Assembly: GCA_003565775.1 (NCBI GenBank)
Contig: PXAT01000135.1
Location: 1-34,565, forward strand
Length of the DNA: 34,565 bases
From: Ectothiorhodospiraceae bacterium
GTDB taxonomy: Bacteria; Pseudomonadota; Gammaproteobacteria; Nitrococcales; Aquisalimonadaceae
Direction: 5' to 3'
In this document: positions 1 through 9,291 of the stretch, piece by piece
Numbering within the stretch: position 1 is the first letter of the stretch
Layout: each line of letters starts with the position of its first letter
Notes under the pieces: model-generated
Database searches by the model: none
What the model saw: only the letters and a program-made list of their open reading frames with translations
Told to the model about the DNA's origin: nothing
Made by a program: the position numbers and the translations under genes

Positions 1-92
1 CGGAGGGACGTCGGCCGCAGGGACGCGGCCGATGAGCGTCCATGGATGGACTCGCAGCGGTCCCGGAGAGGGAATGCCTGACCCCGGCGAAG
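1..92 (+). repeat. Structured repeat, copy 1 (cut by window start)
   Basis: Two adjacent hairpins are visible. The first has stem GGCCGC (13-18) and GCGGCC (25-30) around the hexaloop AGGGAC. The second has stem GTCC (38-41) and GGAC (48-51) around the hexaloop ATGGAT. They are followed by a 36-base tract (53-88) that recurs at 1597-1632 with 31 of 36 matches. The same two-hairpin layout is found at 7351-7446. The left arm of the outer stem would lie before base 1. Both loops carry GGA in the form ANGGAY. Confidence 0.6.
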
Positions 93-5448: not shown

Positions 5449-7125
5449 ATGGCGACGAAAACCATCAAGGTTCCGGACATCGGTGACTTCGACGAGGTGG
5501 ATGTCATTGAGGTCCTGGTGTCCGAAGGCGACAGCATCGAGGCAGAACAGAGCCTGATCACGCTGGAATCCGACAAGGCCACCATGGAAGTGCCGGCCAG
5601 CGAGTCGGGCAAGGTCGGCAAACTGCTGGTCAAGGTCGGCGACAAGGTCGCCGAAGGCATGGATATCCTGGAACTGGAAACCGGCGACAGCGAAGACGCC
5701 GGCGAAGCGCCCCGGGAGCCGGCCCCCGACGCGAACGCCGCCGAAGACAAGCCGGCGCCTGCCCCGGAACCGGCCGAGACCGGTGGTGGCAGTCAGACGG
5801 TCAAGGTGCCCGATATCGGCGACTTCGACGAGGTCGACGTGATCGAGGTGCTGGTGGCCGAGGGCGACCAGGTCGAGGCCGAACAGAGTCTGATCACGCT
5901 GGAATCCGACAAGGCGACGATGGAAGTCCCGGCGCCTGCAGCCGGCACCGTGCAGGCGCTGCATATCAAGGTCGGTGACAAGGTCGCCGAGGGCACCGCG
6001 ATTCTCGAACTGACGGGCGCTGCAGGTGGCGCGAAAAAAACGGCACCCGAGAAACCCGCATCAGGCGAAGAACCCGCGCCGGCCAAAGCCGACGACGCCG
6101 GTTCGGACAAGGCAGCGGACAAGCCCCGCGATCATCAGCTCTACCAGCTCGAAGCCGACCCCGGCCCGGTACCGGTGCAGGCGATCGACAGCGAAGGACA
6201 TCGCCTGGCGCATGCCTCGCCGGGCGTCCGTCGCTACGCCCGCGAGCTGGGCGTCGACCTGTCGGGGCTGAAGGGCACCGGGCGCAAGGGCCGCATCGTC
6301 AAGGAAGACGTGCAGCAGTTCGTCAAGCAGGCCGTGAAACAGGCCGGTAGCGGCGCCGCCGCAGCCGCGCCGGCGGCTGGTGGCGGCATGGGCATCCCGC
6401 CGATCCCGGAGGTGGACTTCAGCAAGTTCGGGGAGACGGAGGAAAAACCGCTCTCGCGGATCAAGCAGAAGTCCGGGCCGCATCTCCATCGCAGCTGGCT
6501 CAACGTGCCGCATGTCACCCAGTTCGAGGAGGCGGACATCACGGCACTGGAAGACTTCCGCAAGGCCGAAAAGGCCGCGGCGGAGAAGGCCGGCGTCAAA
6601 CTCACGCCGCTGGCCTTTCTGGTCAAGGCGGCGGCGGCGGCGCTGGTCGAGTTCCCGGATTTCAACAGCAGCCTGAAACCGGACGGCAGCGCCCTGATCC
6701 TGAAGCGCTACATCAATGTCGGGGTGGCCGTGGACACGCCGAACGGCCTGGTCGTGCCGGTGGTCAAGGATGCCCATCAGAAGGGCGTCTACGCCATTGC
6801 CCGCGACCTGGGTGAGATCAGCAGCAAGGCCCGCGACGGCAAACTCGGACCGGGTGACATGCAGGGCGGCACCTTCAGCATCTCCAGCCTCGGCGGCATC
6901 GGCGGCACGGCCTTCACGCCCATCGTCAATGCGCCAGAAGTGGCAATCCTTGGCGTTTCACGCTCGGAGATGAAGCCCAAATGGAACGGCTCTGAGTTCG
7001 AACCACGGCTGATGCTGCCGCTGTCCCTGTCCTACGATCATAGGGTCATCGACGGCGCTGCGGCAGCACGGTTCACGACGTATCTGAGCGGTCTGCTGGC
7101 TGATTTACGCCGGCTGGTTCTTTGA
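5449..7125 (+). CDS. aceF: Pyruvate dehydrogenase E2, dihydrolipoyl acetyltransferase
   Basis: E2 is the core of the PDH complex and transfers acetyl from lipoamide to CoA. The 558 residues comprise two lipoyl domains (about 1-75 and 118-195), each with the lipoylation motif ESDKATMEVPA. An Ala/Pro/Glu-rich linker follows each lipoyl domain. Next comes a peripheral subunit-binding domain (about 254-290, HASPGVRRYARELGVDLSGL). The catalytic domain begins near residue 330 and ends with the active-site motif H531-RVI-D535-G. E. coli E2 has three lipoyl domains; here a third sits on LpdA. The ATG at 5449 follows an AGGAA ribosome-binding site. Codons in the two lipoyl domains are strikingly alike. 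Confidence 0.96.
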   Translation: MATKTIKVPDIGDFDEVDVIEVLVSEGDSIEAEQSLITLESDKATMEVPASESGKVGKLLVKVGDKVAEGMDILELETGDSEDAGEAPREPAPDANAAEDKPAPAPEPAETGGGSQTVKVPDIGDFDEVDVIEVLVAEGDQVEAEQSLITLESDKATMEVPAPAAGTVQALHIKVGDKVAEGTAILELTGAAGGAKKTAPEKPASGEEPAPAKADDAGSDKAADKPRDHQLYQLEADPGPVPVQAIDSEGHRLAHASPGVRRYARELGVDLSGLKGTGRKGRIVKEDVQQFVKQAVKQAGSGAAAAAPAAGGGMGIPPIPEVDFSKFGETEEKPLSRIKQKSGPHLHRSWLNVPHVTQFEEADITALEDFRKAEKAAAEKAGVKLTPLAFLVKAAAAALVEFPDFNSSLKPDGSALILKRYINVGVAVDTPNGLVVPVVKDAHQKGVYAIARDLGEISSKARDGKLGPGDMQGGTFSISSLGGIGGTAFTPIVNAPEVAILGVSRSEMKPKWNGSEFEPRLMLPLSLSYDHRVIDGAAAARFTTYLSGLLADLRRLVL

Positions 7126-7350
7126 GGAGGAGACAACCTTGAGGCCGGCCGGGGAGCCTGTTCGCCACCTGCTGAAAGCGTGGTGCGGACCTGAGACGCC
7201 AGGAGCAATGTACCGATCTCGCTTGTTCGACGCTGGCGTGATCGGATCACGAACGAAGACTTTGCCGGGAGCCACTGCGATTCGGCACTGCCGTAACAGG
7301 TTTCCTGGAAGCCACCCGGAAAACGAGCGCTGATCAGCCGGAATCAGGGT

Positions 7351-7446
7351 GTCGGATCTGTCGCTCCGGGACTGTCGGCGGCACGGATGCCGCCGCCAAG
7401 CCTGCAAGGATGCATTCACGGCGTGTCCCGGGGCGACAGATGCGGC
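7351..7446 (+). repeat. Structured repeat, full copy 3 with two ANGGAY hairpins
   Basis: Outer arms 7351-7372 and 7425-7446 are complementary at 19 of 22 positions. Inside are hairpin GGCGGC-ACGGAT-GCCGCC (7377-7394) and hairpin TGC-AAGGAT-GCA (7403-7414). Both hexaloops carry the GGA core in the form ANGGAY. It lies in the untranslated gap between aceF and lpdA, on the coding strand. The second loop with its flanks reads CAAGGATG, which matches the core of the published CsrA consensus (CARGGAUG). The rest of the 402-base gap holds no gene I can support. Confidence 0.65.
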
Positions 7447-7527
7447 AACCGGATGGCTCGAAGCCACAAACGTCGGAAAAGTCATCCGTCCGCTTCCATG
7501 CGAGGCGCTGGACACAGGAAACAGATC

Positions 7528-9291
7528 ATGGCGAAGACCACTATCAAGGTACCGGACATCGGCGATTTCGATGCGGTGGAGGTGATCGAGGTGCTGGTCG
7601 CCGAGGGCGACCGGGTGGAAAAGGAACAGAGCCTGATCACGCTGGAATCCGACAAGGCCACCATGGAGGTTCCGGCCGATGCGGCGGGCACGGTCGGCAA
7701 GCTGCTGGTCAAGGTGGGCGACAAGGTCGCCGAGGGCACGCCAATCCTGGATATCGAAGCGGCCGCCGATGATGGCGACACCGCCGAGACCACCGGCGAA
7801 AAGCCGGCGCCCGAGAGCAAGCCTGCGGAAGCGGCGAAACCTGCCGAGAAACCCGCTCCGGCAGCGGCCAGCGACGCGCCGAGCGATGCCGAGTGTGACG
7901 TGCTGGTCATCGGTGCCGGGCCCGGCGGTTATACCGCCGCCTTCCGCGCCGCCGATCTGGGCCTGAGGGTCATCCTGGTGGAGCGCTATGCCGCCCTCGG
8001 CGGCGTCTGCCTGAACGTCGGCTGTATTCCGTCCAAGGCCCTGCTGCACGTCGGTCACATCATCGATACCGCGGCCCAGTTCAAGGACCACGGCATCATT
8101 TTCGGCAAGCCGAAGATCGAGCTGGACAAGCTCCGTTCCTGGAAGGATTCGGTGATCGGCAAGCTCACCGGCGGTCTCGCCGGCATGGCGAAAAAACGCA
8201 AGGTCGAGACCGTTACCGGCAAGGCCCGTTTCACCGGCAGTCATGCGGTCACCGTTAAAGGCGACGACGGCGAACGCGAGATCAGGTTCCGACACGCCAT
8301 CATCGCCGCCGGCTCGCGCGTCGTGGTGCCGCCGGGCATGGATCTGGACGATCCGCGGGTCATGGATTCCACCGGCGCACTCCAGCTCGAGGAGATCCCG
8401 AAGCGCCTGCTGGTCATCGGTGGCGGCATCATCGGCCTGGAGATGGCCACCGTCTACGAGGCCCTGGGCTCGAAGATCACCGTGGTCGAGATGCTGGACC
8501 GGATCATGCCCGGCGCCGACAAGGATCTTATCCGGCCCTACGAAAAGCGTATCCGCAGCCGCTATGAAAACATCTTCCTGAAAACCAGGGTCACCGGCAT
8601 GGAAGCCCAGAAAAAGGGCATCAAGGTGACCTTCGAAGGCGACGACGTGCCGGAGTCGGATACCTTCGACCGGGTGCTGCTGTCGGTCGGGCGCCGCCCC
8701 AATGGCGACCAGCTGGAGGTCGAGGCGGCCGGACTGGAACACGAGCGCGGCTTCATCCGCGTGGACGAACAGATGCGCAGCGTGGTGCCGCACATCTTCG
8801 CGATTGGCGATATCGTCGGCCAGCCGATGCTGGCGCACAAGGCGTCGCACGAGGGCAAGGTCGCCGCCGAGGTCATTGCCGGCGAGAAGAGTGCCTTCGA
8901 CGCTCGCGTCATCCCGTCCGTGGCCTACACCGATCCCGAAGTCGCCTGGGTCGGGGTCACCGAGGAACAAGCCAGGGACGAGGGCATCGCCGTGGAGAAG
9001 GGGGTGTTTCCCTGGGCCGCCAGCGGCCGGGCGCTGGCCATGGGCCGCGACGAGGGCATGACCAAGCTGCTGTTCAGCAAGGAAACCGGGCGGATCATCG
9101 GTGGCGCCGTGCTGGGACCGAATGCCGGCGACGTCATCGGCGAGATCTGCCTGGCCATCGAGATGGGTGCCGAGGCCGCCGACATCGGCCTGACCGTGCA
9201 TCCGCACCCGACCCTGATCGAGACCGTCGGCATGGCCGCCGAAGCCGCCGAGGGCACGATCACCGACCTTTACATGCCGAAGAAGAAGTGA
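7528..9291 (+). CDS. lpdA: Dihydrolipoyl dehydrogenase (E3) with N-terminal lipoyl domain
   Basis: E3 reoxidises dihydrolipoamide using FAD and NAD+. The 587-residue protein starts with a lipoyl domain (about 1-78, with ESDKATMEVPA) and an Ala/Pro/Glu linker. The FAD-binding motif VIGAGPGGYTAAFRA begins near residue 126. The redox-active pair is C161/C166 in GGVCLNVGCIPSKA. The second nucleotide-binding motif is VIGGGIIGLEMA, and the C-terminal catalytic motif is HPHPTLIE near residue 558. The start at 7528 is chosen because the lipoyl domain begins MAKTTIKVPDIGDFD, with AGGAA upstream; an in-frame start at 7387 lies inside the repeat. A lipoyl-E3 fusion next to aceEF is known in several proteobacteria. 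Confidence 0.95.
   Translation: MAKTTIKVPDIGDFDAVEVIEVLVAEGDRVEKEQSLITLESDKATMEVPADAAGTVGKLLVKVGDKVAEGTPILDIEAAADDGDTAETTGEKPAPESKPAEAAKPAEKPAPAAASDAPSDAECDVLVIGAGPGGYTAAFRAADLGLRVILVERYAALGGVCLNVGCIPSKALLHVGHIIDTAAQFKDHGIIFGKPKIELDKLRSWKDSVIGKLTGGLAGMAKKRKVETVTGKARFTGSHAVTVKGDDGEREIRFRHAIIAAGSRVVVPPGMDLDDPRVMDSTGALQLEEIPKRLLVIGGGIIGLEMATVYEALGSKITVVEMLDRIMPGADKDLIRPYEKRIRSRYENIFLKTRVTGMEAQKKGIKVTFEGDDVPESDTFDRVLLSVGRRPNGDQLEVEAAGLEHERGFIRVDEQMRSVVPHIFAIGDIVGQPMLAHKASHEGKVAAEVIAGEKSAFDARVIPSVAYTDPEVAWVGVTEEQARDEGIAVEKGVFPWAASGRALAMGRDEGMTKLLFSKETGRIIGGAVLGPNAGDVIGEICLAIEMGAEAADIGLTVHPHPTLIETVGMAAEAAEGTITDLYMPKKK

Follow-up and report, generated by a model that had tools for sequence, protein, structure and literature searches.

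The gap between aceF and lpdA in the window (the whole stretch of DNA analysed, 34,565 nt) carries two hairpins with GGA in their hexaloops, and this raises the question of whether they form a CsrA/RsmA site controlling the aceF-lpdA mRNA or belong to a dispersed repeat with another role. The reading favoured here, with a confidence somewhat above even, is that the element is a gammaproteobacterial MITE/REP-like repeat, conserved at a tip that is predicted to dock a CsrA dimer as RNA of the GGA strand, and that it is not a dedicated aceF-lpdA control.

Repeat copies in the window

The features of the window are listed in Table 1. Gene calls came from a dicodon model with per-genome training (pooled training for the window), and gave an lpdA start at 7528. 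The deduced LpdA has a lipoyl domain (PF00364) at residues 5–76, ahead of the E3 domains.

Table 1. Coordinates of the repeat copies, their parts and the neighbouring genes in the window
Feature	Position	Strand	Remarks
Second copy, loops AGGGAC (19–24) and ATGGAT (42–47)	1–87	+	5' arm lost at contig start
aceF (pyruvate dehydrogenase E2), upstream of element	5449–7125	+	PF00198, PF00364
Complete copy of the dispersed element	7351–7446	+	covariance-model match spans 7344–7451
Outer stem, 5' arm, includes GGGAC (7368–7372)	7351–7372	+	partner is 7425–7446
Hairpin 1, CGGCGGC-ACGGAT-GCCGCCG, hexaloop 7383–7388	7376–7395	+	
Hairpin 2, GCC-TGC-AAGGAT-GCA-TTCAC-GGC, hexaloop 7406–7411	7400–7422	+	
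TTCAC bulge of hairpin 2, conserved (UUYAC across the family)	7415–7419	+	
Outer stem, 3' arm, GTCCC at its start	7425–7446	+	
lpdA (dihydrolipoamide dehydrogenase, N-terminal lipoyl domain), downstream of element	7528–9291	+	

A sequence-only reading of the same DNA had described hairpins with ACGGAT and AAGGAT loops inside an outer stem and an exact match to the CARGGAUG core; the hairpins are present as described, and the match (CAAGGATG) lies at 7405–7412, within hairpin 2. The outer stem contains 17 contiguous pairs (7356–7372 with 7425–7441), one of them G·U. RNA folding of 7340–7460 gave −71.6 kcal/mol (z = −5.2), a value equalled by none of 200 shuffles. The two GGA triplets are spaced 20 nt apart, and no T-run follows the stem of the window copy. 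Taken by itself the ANGGAY motif is no more frequent in the window than expected (110 occurrences found vs. 119), so that the signal lies in the paired-hairpin structure and its repetition. This lack of enrichment is the one point in favour of hairpins arising by chance in GC-rich sequence, an explanation with practically no probability left, since it is refuted by the stability of the fold and by the covariation and loop conservation of the family described below.

The other copy had been placed at 1–92; both of its proposed loops are real, and its extent was found to be 1–87. Covariance-model E-values of the two window copies were 1.9e-18 and 1.1e-11. Contig ends at or near element copies were observed at position 1 of the window and also on contigs C5, C6, C87, C185 and C204 of the same genome, as expected where an assembly breaks at a repeat. 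The region 170–290 of the window, after this copy, resembles a different dispersed repeat (GGAGTCCGCATTTTTCCCGAGGCAAGGCGCGC...), and a similar stretch adjoins an element copy on another contig (G000:C152, L035).

A dispersed family with a constant tip

In the own genome of the organism (G000) a short pattern recovered the window copy and 16 more genuine copies. An alignment of 16 own-genome copies (A1) showed 95% standard pairs, a covariation score of 0.363 (0.155 when shuffled) and 22 pairs in which both partners had changed, vs. 13 in shuffles. The covariance model R1 raised the number of own-genome copies to about 32, whose outer stems fall into two subfamilies. With the same model the element was found in 26 of the 54 genomes from the host's order (listed counts being capped by 72 scored candidates per genome) and in 68 of 370 genomes sampled from the class (best 10 candidates scored per genome), and copy number reaches tens per genome in many gammaproteobacteria. 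Among the matches listed in a pattern scan of named genomes almost all were from Gammaproteobacteria, belonging to Lysobacterales, Chromatiales, Methylococcales, Pseudomonadales and Alteromonadales, with a GC content of the listed copies from about 0.32 to 0.76; 36 motif matches were obtained in viral contigs. The family was absent from Rfam scans at gathering and permissive thresholds, which returned only miRNA, Ysr224 and Bp1_781, all under their gathering scores. BLAST with the window copy as query recovered almost no copies, being nearly blind to the family because the stems vary.

Inverted pairs of elements, a frequent arrangement missed in the sequence-only reading, are common, with their members 43–119 nt apart (G000, G006 and G038), some of those in G000 being 65–68 nt apart; G000 examples are C90:60102–60385, C110:16035–16311 and C127:73741–74020. 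Transcription of such a pair from either direction would expose one GGA-presenting copy.

In the element an outer stem, long and variable in sequence, is capped by two ANGGAY-hexaloop hairpins with the UUYAC bulge, and within one genome the arms vary between copies while the tips are alike. In order to avoid circularity, loop conservation was measured with a model (R2) built with both loops masked. In stretches of G029 and G038 amounting to 800 kb this model found about 57 sense copies; GGA was present in the first loop of 51 of 57 copies and in the second loop of 52 of about 57. On diverse loci, many of them chosen by a pattern that includes hairpin 2 and leaves hairpin 1 outside, GGA was present in 97 of 98 copies for each loop, and the exact A.GGA. 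hexaloop in 76 of 98 (loop 1) and 96 of 98 (loop 2). In these loci the first loop position is A, the second any base and the sixth mostly a pyrimidine, and C-G closes the two loops in 94 of 97 and 97 of 97 copies, respectively. Loss of the GGA loops among the copies, which would have spoken against the earlier proposal, was thus not observed, and its claim of a dispersed repeat presenting paired CsrA-type sites is borne out genome- and class-wide, the loops staying A-N-GGA-Y while the stems covary.

Double changes were found in 36 of 38 pairs of the diverse-locus alignment, and covariation reached 0.879, vs. 0.181 in shuffled controls and no more than 0.135 in slid ones, in an alignment fitted to the structure. 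Arm covariation can also come from template-switch repair of palindromes; this process explains neither the loop conservation nor the G·U/A·C asymmetry of the arms. Conservation of the UUYAC bulge of hairpin 2, overlooked in the sequence-only reading, is nearly that of the GGA loops; CsrA binding does not account for it, and an RNase E site or a tertiary contact is possible.

The asymmetry was measured with an arm alignment scoring that gives no preference to G·U. Were the structure required only in double-stranded DNA, G·U and A·C mismatches should be equally numerous. On the GGA strand, in counts that include related, non-independent copies, approximately 100 diverse loci gave 136 G·U vs. 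18 A·C and four genomes gave 153 vs. 52, indicating that the GGA strand is the folded, selected one. In G029 the G·U:A·C ratio follows the gene strand (21:3 in co-directional sense copies, 3:8 in antisense ones), so mutation bias may contribute there; antisense copies in other genomes keep the G·U excess (23:1). Since G·T is better tolerated than A·C in single-stranded DNA too, the asymmetry marks the folding strand and does not require RNA.

Placement, orientation and mobility

Of 156 copies in 2.0 Mb from four genomes, two were located within called genes. The copies in co-directional gaps comprised 29 sense and 31 antisense ones (p = 0.9), and this lack of strand bias rules against a sense-mRNA regulatory site. 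Among the 147 classifiable copies, 59 lay between convergent genes and 28 between divergent ones; convergent gaps thus hold 40% of the copies vs. 17% of the intergenic sequence in gaps of at least 150 nt. The absence of strand preference together with the convergent enrichment indicates the placement of an orientation-neutral repeat and not of an mRNA regulatory site.

The aceF-lpdA site agrees with this. Twenty-six lpdA loci of relatives, own genome included, were compared in their original orientation, the element strand being judged relative to lpdA. An antisense copy was present in the gap of G001, G002, G004, G010 and G029, an element pair was located downstream of lpdA in G006, and the gap of some relatives had no element; a sense copy in the gap was found only in the own genome. 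The antisense copy of G001 and G002 is orthologous, and its conservation visibly exceeds that of its flanks. Copies are thus retained once inserted, though not as a sense site on lpdA mRNA. A conserved aceF-lpdA site was therefore rejected, because orientation and position change among the relatives. A CsrA site dedicated to the aceF-lpdA mRNA of this organism alone could still draw on the sense copy, which precedes the lpdA start codon by about 80 nt; this copy lies outside the lpdA Shine-Dalgarno region, the gap in relatives of the order has antisense copies or none, and the family lacks strand bias, which makes such a site very improbable. The earlier suggestion that the element ties this mRNA to CsrA fails on the same evidence, and operon-specific regulation of aceF-lpdA is not supported.

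The excess of copies between convergent genes (59 of 147 copies vs. about 17% of bases) would also suit a role in RNA processing or in the stability of 3' ends, the element being cut by RNase III or by RNase E at the UUYAC bulge or blocking exonucleases, with the loops kept for a protein other than CsrA. The stem is long and stable, and RNase III and RNase E effects are known for Correia and ERIC elements (PMC10969869). This explanation leaves the two identical ANGGA loops unaccounted for, the sense orientation that it should favour is not preferred, and we consider it improbable.

The mobile character of the family is clearest in G029, on whose chromosome the copies are MITEs of about 150 bp with GGNNNCCTCTAAAA ends (81 element copies in 800 kb). 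These terminal inverted repeats bound the copies, with 152 matches genome-wide vs. 1 in the control, and exact 4-bp target duplications were found at 25 of 63 copies, vs. 0.8 expected from shuffles. The ends of the element in other genomes differ from those of G029, and a crude palindrome-extension test detected no target duplications in G000, G006 and G038. An IS200-type (RAYT) origin was rejected: the presence of Y1_Tnp does not track the element (no Y1 found in the own genome with its approximately 32 copies; six Y1 and no element in G034), an element copy was nearby at only 1 of 20 Y1 loci, and no GTAG/CGTC tag was found on either strand of 7340–7460.

The element resembles bacterial MITEs (Correia, ERIC, QMITE) in being short, gene-free, intergenic and palindromic, with terminal inverted repeats and target duplications demonstrated in G029; it differs from them in that its conserved part is an internal RNA-like tip common to the whole class, the ends being divergent. 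With REP/BIME elements it shares high copy number, extragenic location, preference for 3' ends and convergent gaps, and inverted pairs, while it is much longer, the window copy lacks the GTAG/CGTC tag and RAYT genes do not track it. In the literature on MITE and REP repeats that was covered, most subscription journals being outside it, no CsrA-type module was found described.

These properties lead to the strongest competitor of the favoured reading, namely that the tip serves mobility, with the two hairpins of the GGA strand being recognised, as single-stranded DNA or as RNA, by a transposase or other factor, and that its likeness to CsrA sites is coincidental. The MITE structure of G029, the intergenic and orientation-neutral placement, and the constancy of the tip while ends, arms and companions change between genomes are all in agreement with it. 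On the other hand, the loop pattern is CsrA-like down to the free position (A, N, GGA, C-G closing, often RUACARGGAUGU), the tip is unchanged where the ends are quite different, and Y1/RAYT transposases do not track the element. We regard this explanation as unlikely, though deserving of serious attention.

The tip as a predicted CsrA/RsmA docking module

The favoured reading rests on the fit of the tip to known CsrA/RsmA sites. The CsrA SELEX consensus is RUACARGGAUGU, in loops mostly of six bases; RsmE binds an ANGGAN hexaloop, and two sites are bridged at 10–63 nt, with an optimum above 18 nt (PMC7652899). The family presents GGA in a hexaloop of the ANGGAN type, and the 20 nt between the GGAs of the window copy fall inside the bridging range. 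Hairpin 2 is UAC-ANGGAY-GUA in most species (partly through selection by the pattern), and many copies contain RUACARGGAUGU; the own copy, TGC-AAGGAT-GCA, is a partial match to the SELEX flank. The stem of hairpin 1 (7 bp, very stable) is longer than those of most SELEX winners, which have four pairs or fewer.

The csrA gene, whose absence would have refuted the proposal, is present in the own genome (G000:C195:44146–44301). It was found in 67 of 68 element-bearing genomes vs. 257 of 302 others (Fisher p = 9e-4, phylogeny ignored); the element-bearing genome in which it was not found, G227, is a draft assembly of 270 contigs.

The A-N-GGA-N hexaloop closed by C-G and the two bridgeable sites are common to the element and the CsrA/RsmA/RsmE hairpins of CsrB/RsmZ and glgC. 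Unlike these, the element is a palindrome repeated at many places, its outer stem is long and variable, it has the conserved UUYAC bulge, and it is neither a single sRNA gene nor a leader site over a Shine-Dalgarno sequence. Like the sponge sRNAs CsrB, CsrC, RsmX/Y/Z and Aln1 it has several GGA hexaloops able to sequester CsrA; such a sponge is a free-standing, regulated gene with a terminator, and in the element there are two sites per copy and many scattered copies.

According to the favoured reading, the element would be a palindromic dispersed repeat conserved at its tip rather than at its ends or arms. Its GGA strand, when transcribed, would fold and offer two high-affinity CsrA/RsmA sites at a spacing that a dimer could bridge. 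Collectively, the copies would probably spread CsrA-dimer docking sites over many transcripts, and these scattered sites may buffer or titrate CsrA and mark 3' untranslated RNA, as a distributed CsrA sink. CsrA binding, transcription and titration are inferred, as is any benefit to the host or to the element. Random orientation is odd if selection acts on sense-strand RNA in mRNAs; this tension would be resolved either if a low level of GGA-strand transcription is enough, or if selection acts on the tip while the element spreads. A more far-reaching version, in which a mobile family has spread one predicted CsrA-dimer module class-wide, its copy number setting the size of the distributed sink and selection acting on the RNA and for no single gene, is advanced only tentatively.

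If CsrA binds the copies, many gammaproteobacteria would have CsrA sites, so far unrecorded, in numbers from tens to hundreds, and the way in which CsrA dosage and regulon are counted would have to change outside E. coli and Pseudomonas; the family would then be a mobile repeat whose best-conserved part is the binding site of a global regulator of its host. Even with a partner other than CsrA, this is a large, strongly covarying and unlisted family of structured RNA that belongs in Rfam.
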